Below are positions 6,863 to 26,039 of a stretch of 64,000 nt of DNA, one piece after another. The notes beneath the pieces were generated by a model, which saw only the letters and a program-made list of their open reading frames with translations, was not told the DNA's origin and made no database searches. This stretch comes from Humibacter albus DSM 18994 (GTDB lineage Bacteria; Actinomycetota; Actinomycetes; Actinomycetales; Microbacteriaceae), in NCBI RefSeq assembly GCF_000421825.1, contig NZ_ATXT01000011.1:124001-188000 (forward strand), written 5' to 3'. The translations under genes and the position numbers were made by a program. Positions within the stretch are counted from its first letter, which is position 1. Every line of letters starts with the position of its first letter.

Positions 6863-7667
6863 GCCGGTCCGCTTCTTCGACGGCACTCCTCCGCGCGTCA
6901 TCGCGCACCGTGGCCTCGCCCGCGGTGCGGCCGAGAACACGATCGGTGCGTTCCGGGCGGCGCTCGACGCGGGCGCGGACATCCTGGAAACGGATGTGCA
7001 CGGCAGCGCCGATGGCGTGGCCGTGATCTGTCACGACGACGACCTGAGCCGCATTGCGGGTGTGGCCGACCCGGTCGAGGCGTTGCCGATGCGTGAGCTT
7101 CTCGCCCTGGAGCTGGTGCACGGTGGACGCCTCGCCACGCTCGCCGAGGCGCTGAGCGAATTCCCGGATGCGCGCTTCAACATCGACATCAAGACCGATG
7201 CGGCACTGTCGCCGACGATCGACGCGATCCGGGATGCCGGTGCCGAGCCGCGCGTGCTCGTCACCTCGTTCGGTCAGCGTCGTCGGCGCCGGGCCCTGCG
7301 GGCACTGACGGGTGCGGCCACCTCGGCGTCGACGCCCGGTGCGTTCCTTGCCGTGATCGGCACGAGACTGCGTCTGCCCGCGCTCGTACGACTGGGGCTG
7401 CGCGCGGTGGACGCCGTTCAGATTCCTCGCCGCCATCGCGGTGTGACGGTGCTCACCCCCTCGTTCGTCCGTGCCGTGCACGACGCAGGACGCGAAGTGC
7501 ACGTGTGGACTGTCAACGACCCCGACGAGATGCGCGAGGTGCTGTCGATGGGCGTCGACGGCATCGTCTCGGATCGGTGCGATCTGCTGGCTGCGGTGCT
7601 CGCCGAGAGTTCGCGGCGGGACGCCCCCGCGACCGACGGGCGAGAAAATCACCTGAAAGGAGACTGA
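6855..7667 (+). CDS. Glycerophosphodiester phosphodiesterase family protein
   Basis: The 270-residue product has the GDPD TIM-barrel motifs: HRGLARGAAENT at the start, the ETDVHGSADGVAVICHD metal and catalytic region, and NIDIKTD. The C-terminus carries VHVWTVND and GVDGIVSDR. These enzymes hydrolyse glycerophosphodiesters to glycerol-3-phosphate and an alcohol. No signal peptide is seen, so it acts in the cytoplasm. Its ATG overlaps the SPFH stop by eight bases, making it the third gene of the NfeD-SPFH unit and suggesting a link to phospholipid turnover at membrane microdomains. Confidence 0.92.
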   Translation: MPEPVRFFDGTPPRVIAHRGLARGAAENTIGAFRAALDAGADILETDVHGSADGVAVICHDDDLSRIAGVADPVEALPMRELLALELVHGGRLATLAEALSEFPDARFNIDIKTDAALSPTIDAIRDAGAEPRVLVTSFGQRRRRRALRALTGAATSASTPGAFLAVIGTRLRLPALVRLGLRAVDAVQIPRRHRGVTVLTPSFVRAVHDAGREVHVWTVNDPDEMREVLSMGVDGIVSDRCDLLAAVLAESSRRDAPATDGRENHLKGD

Positions 7668-19748: not shown

Positions 19749-20612
19749 CTACTCGACGAGGTTGTCGCTGATCGCATCGAGCGCGAGCGCTTTGGCGCGC
19801 TCGGCGCGCTCCCCCAGGGCGCTCGTGAGTGCCGCGACGATGCCCTGCACGAGGATGGCCTGTGGCAGCCGGGAGGTCAACGTGATCTCCTCGCGGAACG
19901 TGAGGTCGGGCATCGTGACGACGAGCGCGATGTCGGCGCTCTGAGTGAGCGGGCTGCGCGCGAACGACGTGACCAGGATCACGCTCGCACCAGCGGTGGA
20001 GGCCGCCATGGCGACTCGCTGCGTGCTCGCGTTCGCGCCGCTTCCGCTGAACAGCAGTACAGCGTCACCCGGACCGAGGAGCCGTGCGCTGATCTGCTGG
20101 CCGATCACGTCGGTGGGCGCCTCGGCAGGGCGGCCGATGCTGGTGAAGCGCGCCGCGGCATCCACTGCCGTCGGCGCCGACAGGCCGTTGCCGACTACGA
20201 GCACCCTGTTCGCCGAGGCGAGGGTGTCGACCGCGCGAGCGACCTCGTCGTCGTCGAGGAGGGCGAGCATGCCCGGGACGCTCGCGGCGACGTGCCGGAA
20301 TGTCTCGGTGACGATGCCGACGGCGTCGTCCGGCGCGGATGCCGGGGGTGCGGGTTCGGGGTCCTGGTACCCGGCGTCGCGCGCGAGCAGGACGCGCAGC
20401 TGCTGGTAGCCGCTGAAGCCCAGGCTCTGGCAGGTGCGCACGACGGTGGCCCGCGAGGCGCCGGCGAGATCGGCGATCTGCTGCGAGCTGAGCTCGACGA
20501 TGTCGTTCGATCTGCTGAGCAGCACCTGGGCGACGGTCTGTTCCGTGGGCAGCAGCGAGGGCAGCAGCGATCGGATCGTCGCCAGGACCTCTCCCGGCTT
20601 CGACGGCGTCAT
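19749..20612 (-). CDS. RpiR-family transcriptional regulator
   Basis: The 287-residue protein has the RpiR architecture: an N-terminal HTH_6 domain (SSQQIADLAGASRATVVRTCQSLGFSGYQQLR) and a C-terminal SIS sugar-phosphate-binding domain (about residues 130-260, with VLVVGNGLSA and LLFSGSGANAST). These regulators usually respond to phosphorylated sugars. It is the last gene of the phnDCE-type operon and overlaps the phosphoesterase stop/start (ATGA), so it probably controls this operon. The palindromes at the operon head are candidate operators. Confidence 0.9.
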   Translation of the reverse strand: MTPSKPGEVLATIRSLLPSLLPTEQTVAQVLLSRSNDIVELSSQQIADLAGASRATVVRTCQSLGFSGYQQLRVLLARDAGYQDPEPAPPASAPDDAVGIVTETFRHVAASVPGMLALLDDDEVARAVDTLASANRVLVVGNGLSAPTAVDAAARFTSIGRPAEAPTDVIGQQISARLLGPGDAVLLFSGSGANASTQRVAMAASTAGASVILVTSFARSPLTQSADIALVVTMPDLTFREEITLTSRLPQAILVQGIVAALTSALGERAERAKALALDAISDNLVE

Positions 20613-21469
20613 CGTGCAGGCCCCGCGATCTCGGCGATGCGGTCGACCTCGTCGGGCGAGAGGTCGAAGAGCTCGGCTCCGTCCGCGGGGGCGCCGTCGC
20701 CTCCCGCCGATGGAGCGGTGACAAAGGCAACCCGGGGCATCCCGTGCTCCGGCACGTCGACGACGGCGAACCCGGAGCCGGTCACGGCGCGCTCACGGCC
20801 GGCGGGGACGAGCGGATCGGTCGTGTTGGCGATGCCGGGAGCCACGATCACCGGGATGCCTTGCTCGATGGCGACGAACGCGTGGTGGTAGTGGCCGGCG
20901 AGGATCGCGCGCACATCCCCGGCGGCGCAGACCTCGAGCAGGCGCTCGGGGTGCTGCAGCTCGAGCGCGCGCAGCAGTGCGCTCGATGCCGGCGTCGGCG
21001 GGTGGTGCAGCACGACGACGGTGCCGCGCGGAGCGCGCTGCGCGAGGATGCCGCGGAGCCGCTCGAGCTGGACATCGCCGAGCTCTCCGTGCCCATGCCC
21101 CGGCACCGAGGAGTCGAGCACCACGATGCGCGTGCCGTTCGCCTCCAGCACGCGCCACGGGTCGCCGAGCACCGCACGGTAGCCGTGCGCTCCGTCGTGA
21201 TTTCCCATCGCATAGACGACCCGGGCGCCTCGCGCGGCGGCCCAGGGCTCCAGAAGCTCACGCAGGGTGCGGTACGACGCCTCGCTCCCGTCGTCGGAGA
21301 GATCGCCGGAGGCGACCACCAGGTCGACCGCCTGCAGCTCCCCCGCCACCCGCAGCACGCGGCGCAGCGCGGCGGTCGTGTCGACGACGCCGTAGTGCAC
21401 GGTGCGATCGCCGAACAGGTGGGTGTCGGAGAGGTGAAGGATGCGCAGCCCGCCGCTCGCGTCAGTCAT
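20609..21469 (-). CDS. Calcineurin-like metallophosphoesterase
   Basis: The 286-residue protein has all the metal-binding blocks of the family in order: SDTHLFGD, GDLSDDG, GNHDG, HHPPTP and GHYHH. It most resembles the cyclic nucleotide/glycerophosphodiester phosphodiesterase (GpdQ/CpdA) class. It is cytoplasmic. It overlaps the PhnE-like permease gene by eight bases and the rpiR gene by four, so it is an integral part of the uptake operon and probably acts on the imported phosphorus compound. Confidence 0.9.
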   Translation of the reverse strand: MTDASGGLRILHLSDTHLFGDRTVHYGVVDTTAALRRVLRVAGELQAVDLVVASGDLSDDGSEASYRTLRELLEPWAAARGARVVYAMGNHDGAHGYRAVLGDPWRVLEANGTRIVVLDSSVPGHGHGELGDVQLERLRGILAQRAPRGTVVVLHHPPTPASSALLRALELQHPERLLEVCAAGDVRAILAGHYHHAFVAIEQGIPVIVAPGIANTTDPLVPAGRERAVTGSGFAVVDVPEHGMPRVAFVTAPSAGGDGAPADGAELFDLSPDEVDRIAEIAGPAR

Positions 21470-22397
21470 GCGACGCCGCCTTGAGCTCGATCGACTCCTC
21501 GCGCGCCCTGCGTGCGGAACGTCGGCGCAGCGCGGTCACGACCGGAAGCTCCCAGCGTCCCTCGATGATGCGATGCCGAACCATGCCCGAGAGCTGATCG
21601 ATGATCATCGTCACGACGACGACCACGATCATCAGCATGCCCACGACATCCCACACCCGGAACTGAATGTTGTCGACCAGCATCTTGCCGATGCCACCCG
21701 CGCCGATGAGGCCGAGGATCGCGGAGGCACGCACGCTGATCTCGAACCGGTAGAGCCAGAACGCGAGCACATCGGGCTTGGCGTTGGTCCACACGCCCCA
21801 GCGCATGACCTGCGTGCGTGAGGCGCCGGCCGCGGTCGTCGCCTCGATGGCGCCGCGCTCGACCGCTTCGAAGCTCTCGTAGCCCCACTTGCCGAGCGTG
21901 CCGATCGATCCGATCGCGATCGCGAGCGCACCCGTGAACGCCGTCAGGCCGGTGACCGAGAGCATCAGCACGGCGATGACGACCTCGGGCACGGCGCGAA
22001 GAACGGCGAAGAGACCGCGGAGCGGCCAGCGCACCACGGCGGGCATGAGGCCACGGGTGGCGAGCAGGCTGAGGGGGAACGAGATCACGATGCCGATCAG
22101 CGTGCCGAACCAGGCCATCGCGACCGACAGCATGGTCGCGCCCAGGGCGTCCGGGAGCTTCGACCACGCTGGTGGCAGGAACATCAGCCCGAGGTAGTGC
22201 ACGAGCTTCTGCGGGAGGGTGAGCAGGGCATCCCAGGAGATGTCGACGCTCCAGAACGCGGCGACGACGACCAGCGTGACGAGAAGCCAGATCAGCTTGC
22301 TGCTGAGACGGGACGGCTTGACCGGACGCTCGGAGGGACCGGGGTGTCGTGTCGGCGACGGCGTGCGCGTGGTGGTGGACGGGCTGACGGCGGTCAC
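21462..22397 (-). CDS. phnE: Phosphonate-type ABC transporter permease (second PhnE)
   Basis: The 311-residue permease has a hydrophilic, Pro/Ser/Thr-rich N-terminus, about six transmembrane helices, and the conserved EAA-type loop (EAVERGAIEATTAAGASRTQVMRWG) that docks on the ATPase, followed by GLIGAGGIGKML. The GTG start overlaps the stop of the first permease gene (GTGA). Two different PhnE proteins would form a heterodimeric pore. Confidence 0.9.
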   Translation of the reverse strand: MTAVSPSTTTRTPSPTRHPGPSERPVKPSRLSSKLIWLLVTLVVVAAFWSVDISWDALLTLPQKLVHYLGLMFLPPAWSKLPDALGATMLSVAMAWFGTLIGIVISFPLSLLATRGLMPAVVRWPLRGLFAVLRAVPEVVIAVLMLSVTGLTAFTGALAIAIGSIGTLGKWGYESFEAVERGAIEATTAAGASRTQVMRWGVWTNAKPDVLAFWLYRFEISVRASAILGLIGAGGIGKMLVDNIQFRVWDVVGMLMIVVVVVTMIIDQLSGMVRHRIIEGRWELPVVTALRRRSARRAREESIELKAASHD

Positions 22398-23254
22398 TTG
22401 ATCAGCCTCTTCCTGGCGAACGAGCTCAGCAGTTCCAGCAGCACGATGATCACCAGGATCTCGAAGATGATCAGGCTCAGGTAGTGGTACTGGTAGAACG
22501 TGCGCACCTTGTCGATGAGCATACCGAGGCCGCCGGCGCCGACGAGACCGATGACCGTCGACGCACGGATGTTCAGCTCGAGCACGTAGATCGTCTGCGA
22601 GATGTAGGTCGGGGCCACCTCCGGCAGCATCGCCTGCCGGTTCGCCTTGAACCAGGTTGCTCCTGTGGCGAGTGACGCCTCCTGCCCTCCCCGGTCGAGA
22701 CCGTCGAGAGCCTCGGAGATCAGCTTGACCATGATGCCGAGGTTGAAGAGCACGAGCGCGAAGACGCCGGAGAGTGCACCGGTGCCGATGACCGTGACGA
22801 AGAGGGATGCGTAGAGCAGGTCGGGCACGCTGCGCACCACGTTCATCACGAAGCGCACGATGCCGAGTGCCACGCTGTTCGGGTTCGTGGCGCGGGATGC
22901 CCAGAACGAGATGGGCAGCGCGATGATCACGCTGACGGCCGTGCCGATGATCGCCATCTGGACCGTCTCCACCAGCGCGGGGACGGTCTGCGGGAAGAAC
23001 GAGTAGTCCGGCTGCACGAGCTGGATGAGCGTGTTCGACGCGTTGTTCGCGTTCTCGATCAGCGCCCCGAAGTCGACCCCGACGGCGATGGCCGACCAGA
23101 CGGTGATGCCGGCCACGACGAGAAGGGCGACGAGCGACTTCCACCCCGTGCGCGGCTTCGTCGGTCGCGCCGATCCGCCCGCGGTCCCGGGTCCGCCGGC
23201 GCTCGGGCGGCGAAGGGTCCCGGCCCGGCTCGCGCCGAGTCCGGCCACGCTCAC
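22394..23254 (-). CDS. phnE: Phosphonate-type ABC transporter permease (first PhnE)
   Basis: The 286-residue permease has a basic N-terminus, about six hydrophobic helices and the docking loop EALDGLDRGGQEASLATGATWFK, with LVGAGGLGMLID after it, which is typical of PhnE. It is a paralogue of the adjacent permease. The GTG start overlaps the phnC stop (GTGA), so translation of the whole transporter is coupled. Confidence 0.9.
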   Translation of the reverse strand: MSVAGLGASRAGTLRRPSAGGPGTAGGSARPTKPRTGWKSLVALLVVAGITVWSAIAVGVDFGALIENANNASNTLIQLVQPDYSFFPQTVPALVETVQMAIIGTAVSVIIALPISFWASRATNPNSVALGIVRFVMNVVRSVPDLLYASLFVTVIGTGALSGVFALVLFNLGIMVKLISEALDGLDRGGQEASLATGATWFKANRQAMLPEVAPTYISQTIYVLELNIRASTVIGLVGAGGLGMLIDKVRTFYQYHYLSLIIFEILVIIVLLELLSSFARKRLIK

Positions 23255-24072
23255 GACAGCTCCGCTGTCGTCTCGGGCAGCACATCCTCGGCCGTCAGCG
23301 ACCGGCCGTAGATGGACTCGAAGACGCTCTCGTCGGCATCCGCTCCCTGCCCGTCGTAGACGATCTCGCCGGAGCGCAGTCCGACGAGACGCTGACCGTA
23401 GCGTCGCGCCAGGTCGAGGAAGTGCAGGTTGACGACCACGGTGATGCCGAGTTCCGTGTTGATGCGCTGCAGGTCCCGCATCACCACGTGCGAGGTGGGC
23501 GGGTCGAGGGATGCCGTCGGCTCGTCCGCGAGGATCACCTTCGGCTTCTGCGCCAGCGCCCGGGCGATCGCCACACGCTGCTGCTGGCCGCCGGAGAGCT
23601 CGGAGGCGTTGGCGTACGCCTTCTGTACGATCTCGACGCGTTCGAGTGCCTGCATGGCGAGCTCGACGTCATCCTTCTTCCACGCCGCGAGCAACGTGCG
23701 CCACGCCGACGTGTGGTGCAGCCTGCCCATCAGCACGTTGTTCAGCACCGTGGTGCGCTTGGCGAGGTTGAAGCTCTGGAACACCATGCCGACCTCGCTG
23801 CGCAGCTGTCGCAGCCTCGCGCCGCGCAGACCGTGCAGGCCGAACTCGCCGACGGTGATCTGTCCCGACGTGATCGGGACGAGCCCGTTGATCGTGCGCA
23901 CGAGCGTGGACTTGCCTGCGCCGGAGAGCCCGACGACGGCGACCATCTCGCCCGGCGCGATCTGAAGGTTCACATTCTTCAGACCGCGGTAGCCGTTCGG
24001 GTAGGTGACGTCGACGTGCTCGAACCGGATGCCGGCGCCGCTCGTTTCCGGTGTGGAGTGCGGGTCGTTCAT
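23251..24072 (-). CDS. phnC: Phosphonate-type ABC transporter ATP-binding protein
   Basis: The 273-residue ATPase carries Walker A GLSGAGKS, the signature ELSGGQQQRVAIARAL and Walker B VILADEPTASLDP, followed by the switch histidine in VNLHFLDLA. This length and the VNLHxxDLA sequence are typical of PhnC. The ATG is chosen as the first start before the conserved domain, 29 bases after phnD. Confidence 0.92.
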   Translation of the reverse strand: MNDPHSTPETSGAGIRFEHVDVTYPNGYRGLKNVNLQIAPGEMVAVVGLSGAGKSTLVRTINGLVPITSGQITVGEFGLHGLRGARLRQLRSEVGMVFQSFNLAKRTTVLNNVLMGRLHHTSAWRTLLAAWKKDDVELAMQALERVEIVQKAYANASELSGGQQQRVAIARALAQKPKVILADEPTASLDPPTSHVVMRDLQRINTELGITVVVNLHFLDLARRYGQRLVGLRSGEIVYDGQGADADESVFESIYGRSLTAEDVLPETTAELS

Positions 24073-24101
24073 GGTGTTCCGTCCGTTGTGGTCGTGCCCG
24101 A

Positions 24102-25124
24102 TCAGCCGAGGCCGATCGAGGCCGCGGCCTTCTGGGTCTTCTGCAGGCTGGCGGGGTCGGCATCCACCAGTCCGGAGATCTGGTAGATGGCCTCGAGCGT
24201 CTTCACGCCGTCCTTGGTCTTCGAGTACGACTTCATCGCGTCGGCGATCTTGGACTGCCACTTCTTGCTCAGGCCGGCGCTGATCGAGACGCCGTCATTC
24301 GGGATCTCGTCGGTGAGGGCGAACACGACGACCTTATTGCCCACGTCGGGGGTGTCGGGCTGCACGACGGTGCGCGCGTCCCAGTAGCTGGTGCCGACCT
24401 CGGCGTCGCCGTTGTAGACCGCGAGCACGCTGGCGTCGTTCGCGGTGACCTGCGTCACCTTGATGTCGTCGATCGAGATGCCCTGCTTCTTCATCGCCGC
24501 GACCGGGAAGATGTAGCCGGCCGGCGACGCCGCCTGCAGGAGGGAGACCGTGGCACCCTTGATCTTCTTGATCGACGAGAGTCCGGCGGGGCCCGTGCCC
24601 GACTGCGTGCCGTTGCAGTACAGCATGCCGTCGTCGCCCTTCACCGGCTTGTCGGCGCAGTACTTGTCGGGATCGTTCGTGAAGAACTGGGCGGCGTAGG
24701 TGCTCTTGCCGTTGCGCTGCGTCTGCAGCGCGGGGACCGCGCCGTACTTGTCGCAGGCCTGGCTCATCTGAAGGCTCGGCAGCATGCCGATCTGGGCCTG
24801 GTTGCTGCCGATCGCCTCGACGGCGGCCTGGTAGTCCTGCGTGATGACGCCCTTGACCGGGATGCCCAGACGCTTGGTCAGCGCGTCTTCGAGCGGCTTC
24901 ACCGTCTCGACGAGCTTGCTCGCGTCGCCGGACGGCACCAGCGCGAGAGTCAGCTTCGTCGGAGCCTTCGCCGAGCTGTCGGCCTTGCCGGTGCACGGGC
25001 CGGACGCGGCAGCGGTCGAGTCGCCCGTCGTGTCCTGCTGCTGGACGCCGCAGCCGCTGAGGGCGAGCGTGACCGCGACGGCCAGGGCAGCCGTGGTGGC
25101 GATGCTCATCTTTGCGATCTTCAT
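24102..25124 (-). CDS. phnD: Phosphonate/phosphite-type substrate-binding lipoprotein
   Basis: The 340-residue product has a lipoprotein signal peptide ending in LSGC (C25) and a periplasmic-binding fold of the PhnD family: LTLALVPSGDASKL at the start, PLEDALTKRLGIPV, and a ligand-cleft segment around GTSYWDARTV. Families in this group bind phosphonates, phosphite or phosphate esters, and the sequence alone does not say which. A TAAGGAA ribosome binding site precedes the ATG. About 110 bases separate it from the upstream HAD gene and contain no obvious terminator. Confidence 0.92.
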   Translation of the reverse strand: MKIAKMSIATTAALAVAVTLALSGCGVQQQDTTGDSTAAASGPCTGKADSSAKAPTKLTLALVPSGDASKLVETVKPLEDALTKRLGIPVKGVITQDYQAAVEAIGSNQAQIGMLPSLQMSQACDKYGAVPALQTQRNGKSTYAAQFFTNDPDKYCADKPVKGDDGMLYCNGTQSGTGPAGLSSIKKIKGATVSLLQAASPAGYIFPVAAMKKQGISIDDIKVTQVTANDASVLAVYNGDAEVGTSYWDARTVVQPDTPDVGNKVVVFALTDEIPNDGVSISAGLSKKWQSKIADAMKSYSKTKDGVKTLEAIYQISGLVDADPASLQKTQKAAASIGLG

Positions 25125-25233
25125 CGTGTTCCTTACATGTAGGAGGTGCGTGGACTTGCGGTATCGAGGAGTTGCGGTATTCGGACTTGCCGTCGTGGAG
25201 AGTCGCTGTTCAGGAAGGGACGTTCATCGGGGT

Positions 25234-25956
25234 TCAGTCGGCGGCCGCGATCGGGGCGGGAGCGTGTTCGCGGCGGAACGCCGCGGGGTCCGCGGCCCAG
25301 GTTCGGATCCCGTCGTAGAGCGACTCGAACTTGTCTCCGACGAGGTCGGCAGGTGCGCTCTCCCGGCCGAACCGGTCGATGAGCGCGGTGGCGCAGCCGG
25401 CGGCCGCGGGCGCTGCGAGATCGTTGCTCCAGATGTCGCCGACCGCCATGAGGTTCTCGGCGGGGCGGCCGCCGAGCAGGGAAGGCAGGATGCCCGCCCA
25501 TCCGTCGGGCTTGCCCGCGCCGGTGATGACCTGGTCGAGCTCGCCGGTGAGCCCGAGCGCCTCGAGGGTCTGCACGACGCCCTCCCCCGGCGCGTTCGTC
25601 ACGAGGACCCGTCGCGTGGTGGCCCCGAGCTCGTGCAGGAACGACGCGAGGTCCTCGGGGGCGGTGACATCGAGCATCCCCTGCGCCAGGGCTCGGCGAC
25701 TGGCCGCGTACGCGGCGTCGCGGTGCTCACCGCTCACCGCCTCGGCGGAGAGGGCGGCCACGGCGGCGTAGCCGTCGATGTAGGACGGCGAGGCGGGATC
25801 TCCCTCGAGGAACGCTTTCAGCCCGCCGCGGATCTGCTCGCCGCTGTCGCCGTCGATCATGGCGAGCACGGCATCCGCGTAGGCCCAGACGGGGGCGTCG
25901 CCGATGGAGACGGTTCCGTCGAAGTCGAGGACGAGCACGGTGTCGTTCGATGTCAC
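25234..25956 (-). CDS. HAD-superfamily hydrolase at the head of the phn-type operon
   Basis: The 240-residue protein has the HAD motifs LDFDGTVSIGD (nucleophile and acid), VTNAPG, and the acidic GDIWSNDLAAPAAAG motif IV. It is a soluble cytoplasmic phosphatase, or in principle a phosphonatase-like enzyme. However, I do not see a canonical phosphonatase lysine motif. It begins with GTG and is the first gene behind a promoter region with two palindromes. Its placement before the importer suggests it acts on the imported phosphorus compound or its product. Confidence 0.85.
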   Translation of the reverse strand: MTSNDTVLVLDFDGTVSIGDAPVWAYADAVLAMIDGDSGEQIRGGLKAFLEGDPASPSYIDGYAAVAALSAEAVSGEHRDAAYAASRRALAQGMLDVTAPEDLASFLHELGATTRRVLVTNAPGEGVVQTLEALGLTGELDQVITGAGKPDGWAGILPSLLGGRPAENLMAVGDIWSNDLAAPAAAGCATALIDRFGRESAPADLVGDKFESLYDGIRTWAADPAAFRREHAPAPIAAAD

Positions 25957-25976
25957 GCCTGCGAGCCTACGACGGA

Positions 25977-25993
25977 ATGAACGAACCGTTCAT
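25977..25993. promoter_or_regulatory. 17-bp inverted repeat, candidate operator of the phn-type operon
   Basis: ATGAACG and CGTTCAT flank a three-base centre. The element lies 21 bases upstream of the HAD start and overlaps a minus-strand TATGAA hexamer that could be the -10 element. This is where a repressor would block initiation. The RpiR protein encoded at the end of the operon is the natural candidate. Confidence 0.55.
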
Positions 25994-25998
25994 AAAAA

Positions 25999-26010
25999 TC
26001 GTGATCACGA
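25999..26010. promoter_or_regulatory. Perfect 12-bp palindrome TCGTGATCACGA
   Basis: This palindrome lies six bases beyond the first inverted repeat, between the putative -10 and -35 positions of the minus-strand promoter. Two symmetric sites this close together suggest a regulator-binding region. The rest of the intergenic stretch to 26175 contains only a short tandem repeat of CTCGACGGCGAA near 26135-26165. Confidence 0.5.
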
Positions 26011-26017
26011 AACGAGT

Positions 26018-26039
26018 GTTCACGGATCGTTAACTCAGC
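26018..26039 (+). promoter_or_regulatory. PHO-box-like 11-bp direct repeat
   Basis: GTTCACGGATC is followed immediately by GTTAACTCAGC. Actinobacterial PhoP boxes are 11-base direct repeats beginning GTTCACC or similar, so the spacing fits and the first unit matches six of seven conserved bases. The orientation is opposite to the operon, which weakens the case. Confidence 0.3.

Follow-up and report, generated by a model that had tools for sequence, protein, structure and literature searches.

A PhnDCEE importer operon with HAD hydrolase and RpiR regulator genes in Humibacter albus and related Actinobacteria, probably a phosphorus-scavenging cassette for organic phosphate esters

The stretch analysed here, called the window, comprises 64,000 nucleotides of Humibacter albus DSM 18994 (positions 124001-188000 of its contig, within a 3.69-Mb genome that is 99% complete) and carries at 19749-25956, on the minus strand, seven genes that lie head to tail. 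They encode a HAD-superfamily hydrolase, the PhnD, PhnC and two PhnE components of an ATP-binding cassette importer (PhnDCEE), a metallophosphoesterase (MPE) and an RpiR-type regulator, and are flanked by an MshC gene on one side and a PAC2-family gene on the other. The gap between HAD and PhnD, read off the sequence, is 109 bp, that between PhnD and PhnC is 29 bp provided that PhnC begins at the ATG at 24072, and the remaining four junctions are overlaps of 4 or 8 bases. A first-pass annotation had described a seven-gene operon of this extent and spacing, and gene calls and domain scores bear this out (Table 1).

Table 1 Genes of the operon and features upstream of its first gene, in window coordinates
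Feature	Position	Strand	Basis or remark
HAD-superfamily hydrolase, probable cytoplasmic phosphatase	25234..25956	-	GTG start, predicted leaderless; PF00702 below cut-off, motifs, model
PhnD-type substrate-binding lipoprotein	24102..25124	-	PF12974 150.5 bits; TIGR01098 above cut-off; model and fold matches
PhnC ATPase	23251..24072	-	TIGR02315 324 bits vs cut-off 266; start codon picked by eye
PhnE permease 1	22394..23254	-	TIGR01097 238 bits vs cut-off 217
PhnE permease 2	21462..22397	-	TIGR01097 248 bits vs cut-off 217
MPE, Rv0805/CpdA type, accessory and clade-restricted	20609..21469	-	PF00149 above cut-off; Rv0805 profile match E 2.4e-64
RpiR-type regulator, helix-turn-helix (HTH) and SIS with SGSG loop	19749..20612	-	PF01418, PF01380
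Putative operator O2, TGAACGGTTCGTTCA	25978..25992	-	perfect inverted repeat across the six outermost bases of either side
Possible second operator O1, TGAACACTCGTTTCG	26008..26022	-	30 bp upstream of O2
-10-like TAGGCT	25964..25969	-	7 nt ahead of the HAD GTG
PHO-box-like direct repeat GTTCACGGATCGTTAACT	26018..26035	+	11/14

PhnD, PhnC and both PhnE were scored against the curated NCBIfam cut-offs, and MPE and RpiR against those of Pfam. PhnD passes TIGR01098 with 144 bits (cut-off 112) and, taken jointly with PhnC and PhnE, identifies an importer of the PhnT family (PF12974/TIGR01098 together with PhnC and PhnE equivalogs above cut-off). It is the sole PF12974 match, no second such protein being found elsewhere in the whole genome, and its LSGC lipobox with Cys25, recognised by eye, makes it look like a lipoprotein. 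The predicted model (pLDDT 86.9, with residues 1-40 poor) has the PhnT fold. PhnC and PhnE equivalogs and the fold of PhnD are shared with the E. coli PhnCDE importer of the carbon-phosphorus (C-P) lyase operon, but here the PhnD equivalog TIGR03431 is not reached (78 bits against 261.1) and the genome has no match to PhnJ, the C-P lyase core (PF06007). The fold was also considered as a guide to the ligand and rejected: Z scores of 22.7-25.7 cover ArrX, XAC2383, PtxB, PhnD1, GpxB and E. coli PhnD with bound ligand, so that the fold cannot pick the ligand.

Of 299 genomes sampled from the bacterium's own family, 39 carry a relative of this PhnD (E <= 1e-20); of 394 sampled from its class, 12 do (E <= 1e-15), three of those 12 belonging to the same family. 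A genome contig collection yielded 43 loci, including some from other soil Actinobacteria, which were picked via peptide patterns of the window's PhnD and are biased to close relatives, and 110 plasmid records match at E <= 1e-5, four of which were read in detail. Within the 79 actinobacterial-type loci (the window, L036-L104 and L145-L153, of which L050 and L051 bear other taxon labels), HAD stands beside PhnDCEE in 70 and RpiR in 67, and gene maps show the two flanking the importer; the loci are mutually related, and these counts are not independent events. The gene order recurs down to 28% PhnD identity, where L103 and L104 still have both HAD and RpiR, which argues that it is not due to chance. 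Gene order was examined in 30 of the 39 family carriers, 25 of them through wider regions (26 regions) and five through the window or the contig collection; gene calls over the locus neighbourhoods are rough and served only to spot recurring neighbours. Other annotated flanking families are prenyl synthases, a FAH-type hydrolase, an M20 peptidase and a second HAD, and three of the four plasmid loci have an annotated 5'-nucleotidase near PhnDCEE.

Several loci merit separate mention. Three (L094, L095 and L100) belong to a sister PhnDCEE branch without RpiR, in which, as read by eye from translations, an SsuABC-like importer follows. Behind PhnDCEE at L101:4706-7905, a locus from a small genome (1.1 Mb, 84% complete), come frames that resemble pta and ackA by eye. 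L051, labelled Sporosarcina, and L050, labelled Acidobacteria, have PhnD operons that resemble the ones in Arthrobacter loci, and since L051 shares several flanking families and L050 one with those loci, mislabelling, contamination or transfer is possible.

The HAD protein carries the catalytic motifs DxDGT, TN, K149 and GDxxxND, which are conserved in an alignment of 34 loci (35 sequences): D11-x-D13 in each of the 34 rows extending that far, T120-N121, K149, G173-D174 and D179 in every row, and N178 in 33 of 35. Its predicted model has a mean pLDDT of 92.7, and among solved structures N-acylneuraminate-9-phosphatases come closest (profile E 5e-4; Foldseek 1.3e-9, TM ~0.54). Some phosphonatases are also HAD enzymes; the operon's HAD was rejected as one, the cut-off of TIGR01422 (PhnX) not being reached, and it has DxDGT in place of the phosphonatase motif. 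None of the 39 carrier genomes has a HAD above that cut-off, other phosphonate enzymes not having been searched, and weaker, sub-threshold matches occur in 38 of them. PhnJ is absent from 36 of the 39 and in the other three is located elsewhere than the importer. The lack of C-P lyase and phosphonatase noted at first pass is thus upheld, for PhnJ in the genome and for phosphonatases above cut-off, but to regard a Phn importer without C-P lyase as noteworthy among Actinobacteria was an overstatement, since PhnDCE of M. smegmatis reportedly takes up inorganic phosphate (Pi; PMC7866108, in part).

Both domains of RpiR lie above cut-off (PF01418, HTH_6, 65.4 bits; PF01380, SIS, 52.4 bits), and the protein matches MurR and other RpiR structures. 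The SGSG loop, typical of phosphosugar-binding SIS domains, is present in 61 of 65 RpiR sequences. Upstream of HAD, 44 of 66 regions contain the palindrome TGRACN5GTYCA in exact form and 64 contain it with at most one mismatch (L065, with <200 bases upstream, was left out of the upstream counts), compared with 0.0 and 1.55 of 66 in Markov shuffles and 3 and 14 of 330 random windows from the same loci. The two regions without it come from L094 and L100, the two loci of this set that lack RpiR. Because the consensus was refined on these regions, the held-out loci L145 and L147, in which RpiR is present, are the fairer test, and each scores 10/10; L153, which has HAD and no RpiR, scores 8/10, and where RpiR is missing, the region ahead of PhnD usually scores 6-8, with 9 in L056 and L151. 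A second score peak at offsets -31/-30 from the operator (64 loci; means 5.94 and 6.56 against an offset median of 2.92) suggests tandem putative operators. The exact sequence TGAACGNNNCGTTCA has one occurrence in the genome. In 38 of 67 loci the layout downstream of the palindrome is a gap of 8-10 nt, TANNNT, a further 4-8 nt and a start codon, the other 29 being misfits; the TANNNT is probably a -10 element, with HAD leaderless and the operator close to the -35 region.

A second conserved element accompanies the palindrome. Direct repeats were scored against GTTCACCN4GTTCACC, a consensus from work on Streptomyces PhoP, and upstream of HAD they reach at least 12/14 in 34 of 66 regions and at least 11/14 in 49, whereas shuffles gave 0.3 and 2.1 of 66 and random windows 2 and 14 of 330. 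The positive control consisted of the regions upstream of 30 pstS-type genes in carrier genomes, of which 28 score at least 12/14, the organism's own scoring 13/14; 14 of these 30 genes pass TIGR00975, its own falling just under (204.0 vs 205 bits). The repeat mostly lies farther upstream than the operator, and the spacing between the two (n=49) is 43 bp with the repeat inverted in 20 cases and 54-55 bp in 15; 11 have 13, 23 or 24 bp, which would fit the best match having fallen on the upstream operator, and three have other values. Upstream of PhnD in the RpiR-less loci L056, L100, L101 and L149 there is a repeat of 12 or 13/14 (13 in L056). The PHO box of pstS is described as two 11-nt direct repeat units (PMC7866108, in part). 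Taken together, the promoter elements suggest that phosphate starvation and a ligand-sensing repressor control the operon jointly. They also lend support to the first-pass annotation, the PHO-box-like repeat and the conserved operator being indicative of phosphorus scavenging under a specific inducer.

The binding pocket of PhnD was located by profile sequence alignment rather than from coordinates, with residue roles taken from PMC5700983 and PMC12718374 (both in part). Tyr98, Tyr143 and Ser200 are kept at conserved phosphate-head positions, Pro201, Ala202 and Asn229 replace E. coli PhnD Thr128, Ser129 and His157, and Asp249/Asp277 align with the E. coli tail pair Glu177/Asp205. L018 was dropped from the aligned sequences because of a stop. 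In an alignment of 83 rows, which includes the four plasmid loci, the head combinations are Ser-Pro-Ala/Asn (SPA/N) in 53, SPA with a gap in L078, which matches in broken pieces, SSA/H in 13, SAS/H in 10, SAS/I in three, STA/H in two and STS/H in one. Both HAD and RpiR are present in 52 of the 53 SPA/N rows (L056 being the exception), in L078, in 12 of 13 SSA/H and in two of three SAS/I rows, and none of the ten SAS/H loci has RpiR. Arg251 is found in 82 of the 83 relatives, the remaining row being a gap, and 14 of the 53 SPA/N rows have Gly instead of Asp277. A ligand tail with a hydroxyl or an amine would be a good match for the two acids. Residues 142-171 of PhnD (24612-24701) form a stretch without counterpart in the PtxB alignments, with conserved Cys156 and Cys170 that perhaps make a disulfide.

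The closest precedent for a phosphate ester as cargo is GpxB, a PhnT-family carrier of glycerol phosphates with a Kd of about 1-2.5 uM (PMC12718374, in part), which shows that the family can carry such compounds. GpxB is likewise a PhnT-family binding protein that works with an importer, and it shares the fold of the window's PhnD (9lf9, Z 23.8, root-mean-square deviation 3.9, 271 aligned), but its head is Ser-Asn-Ser/His and its tail Arg223/Thr247, against Ser-Pro-Ala/Asn and Asp249/Asp277 here, the latter pair being placed through the correspondence with E. coli PhnD that PMC12718374 sets out, not by direct residue alignment with GpxB. The words "RpiR" and "phosphatase" have 0 occurrences in the main text of that paper. 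The phosphite importer PtxB differs in its capping Tyr208, where Asp277 stands here, and in its Ser-Thr-Ser/His head (roles from PMC5700983, in part).

The MPE, by contrast with HAD and RpiR, is not a core partner. MPE of the window type is present in 23 loci, all inside one PhnD clade of 25 (support 0.993), and three parsimony changes on the 83-row tree account for its distribution; as the carriers fall in a single clade, the confinement of MPE to one class of pocket carries no independent weight. The two clade members without it are L036, which is Humibacter sp. RRB41 of the same genus, and L056, so that the weight given at first pass to a second phosphatase was overstated. The motifs DxH, GD, GNHD, HH and GHxH, the metal ligands of Rv0805/CpdA class III phosphodiesterases, are invariant in 20 aligned sequences. 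Rv0805 structures are the best profile match, and a GpdQ-type enzyme was rejected because Rv0805 is far nearer (2.4e-64 vs 5.8e-23 for the GpdQ phosphohydrolase group); with 106 bits the MPE stays under the CpdA equivalog cut-off of 225. Between the second PhnE and RpiR, L103 has a UshA-like metallophosphoesterase (sub-threshold matches; no obvious signal peptide by eye), and L104 has a similar frame there, seen in translation only; the slot before RpiR is filled by metallophosphoesterases of differing types, CpdA-like in the window and UshA-like in these two. A glycerophosphodiester phosphodiesterase family gene (PF03009, 134 bits) lies at 6906-7583, ~12 kb from the operon.

The starvation-type promoter element, the phospho-ligand-type regulator, the phosphatase-type HAD and the failure to find either of the two phosphonate routes searched for lead us to conclude that the operon is probably a phosphorus-scavenging cassette, which imports an organic phosphate ester from which HAD releases Pi inside the cell. 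From these computed features we infer the direction of control, the class of ligand and the enzyme activities, and tentatively propose the following course of events. At low phosphate, a PhoP-type activator bound at the PHO-box-like repeat would turn on a leaderless HAD-phnDCEE-mpe-rpiR transcript, while RpiR, at operators located at and upstream of the -35 region, would repress it until a phosphorylated compound occupies the SIS domain. The PhnD lipoprotein would then catch an organic phosphate ester, most likely a small one with a hydroxyl or amine tail, and PhnCEE would take it in intact. Where present, the MPE could split diester forms, and HAD would free Pi in the cytoplasm. Of the import and intracellular ester hydrolysis envisaged in the first-pass annotation, the part that rests on HAD and RpiR as near-constant partners stands, while the second phosphoesterase is dispensable.

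A number of observations weigh against this proposal. L056 (Propionibacterium cyclohexanicum) keeps PhnDCEE without HAD or RpiR at 69% PhnD identity, and some side chains that grip the phosphate head in relatives are lost in the window's PhnD. HAD scores 21.2 bits against PF00702, under the cut-off of 26.4, and its activity is therefore deduced from motifs. The palindrome consensus was refined on the loci in which it was counted, which are related, and the RpiR-less L151 has an operator-like site (9/10) upstream of PhnD. The window's own PHO-type repeat scores only 11/14 and is inverted relative to the gene, and the held-out L145 and L147 reach only 11 and 10/14. Furthermore, the genome holds 20 GTTCACN5GTTCAC sites at up to one mismatch (a reversed control pattern gives 4), and of the two that match exactly, one is located between what read as rplI and dnaB genes (109535-109551 of another contig). 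Given these near-matching sites and the window's score of 11, the argument from the PHO box rests on conservation across genomes and not on the window's single site.

As to the ligand, a sugar or polyol phosphate is plausible, and the pocket residues and L056 fit an amino-alcohol phosphate equally. Downstream of PhnDCEE in L056 (11672-16426), the best scores are an amino-acid/ethanolamine-type permease, a kinase, a class III aminotransferase and an SDR, all below cut-off; this single neighbourhood hints at amino-alcohol phosphates, and the extra genes were dropped as substrate clues, being confined to one locus and to sub-threshold matches. An RpiR gene is listed beside ethanolamine genes in Phaeobacter (PMC10132767, in part), which we take as a lead only. 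It is conceivable, and clearly less probable than not, that the operon represents a distinct actinobacterial pathway, in which the rebuilt pocket (Ser-Pro-Ala/Asn with Arg251) would take up an intact phosphodiester or amino-alcohol phosphate, e.g., glycerophosphoethanolamine, phosphoethanolamine or a cyclic nucleotide, and transcription would be an AND gate of starvation and an RpiR-sensed phosphorylated inducer.

An unlikely alternative is a second high-affinity Pi importer like that of M. smegmatis, with HAD and RpiR serving an unrelated phosphosugar balance. PhnDCE-PhnF of that species is an actinobacterial Phn system, induced by phosphate limitation and reported to transport Pi and to carry no phosphonate (PMC7866108, in part; compared by description, not by sequence), and the upstream PHO-type repeat suits Pi uptake as much as ester uptake. 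However, its regulator is of the GntR type, the E. coli head residues Thr128, Ser129 and His157 are Pro, Ala and Asn here, and a near-constant phosphatase-type HAD and an SIS regulator would have no obvious role for free Pi. We consider it quite improbable that the operon imports a phosphonate such as 2-aminoethylphosphonate, with HAD as an unrecognised C-P hydrolase: the amine-binding acids of E. coli PhnD do align with Asp249/Asp277, but the head pocket is altered, PhnJ is rare among the carriers and away from the importer, and the phosphonatase search described above found no HAD at cut-off. A phosphorus-free cargo (a sulfonate, a phosphate-like anion or another compound), with HAD acting on a phosphorylated catabolite, is very unlikely, for although same-fold members bind arsenate, sulfate or sterols and the three sister-branch loci adjoin SsuABC-like importers by eye, the PHO-type repeat stands upstream of HAD in the RpiR-linked branch at mostly fixed spacing.

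With uptake of an organic phosphate ester as the preferred reading, the importer machinery itself is of a known type, and it is the conserved promoter with its apparent two-signal switch that looks new. No description of the HAD-PhnDCEE-RpiR set was found in the literature searched, which consisted mostly of titles and abstract openings with subscription papers largely outside reach, so that its absence is unproven. Genes named phn are routinely taken to indicate phosphonate uptake, and for this type of PhnD organic-phosphate scavenging is more likely. The analysis yields a short list of candidate ligands and a promoter with two readable signals, and it may offer a lead for other starvation-induced importers whose substrate is unknown, among them C. 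glutamicum pctABCD, which is likewise an actinobacterial ABC importer induced by phosphate starvation (PMC3353115 and PMC4448153, both in part; compared by description).

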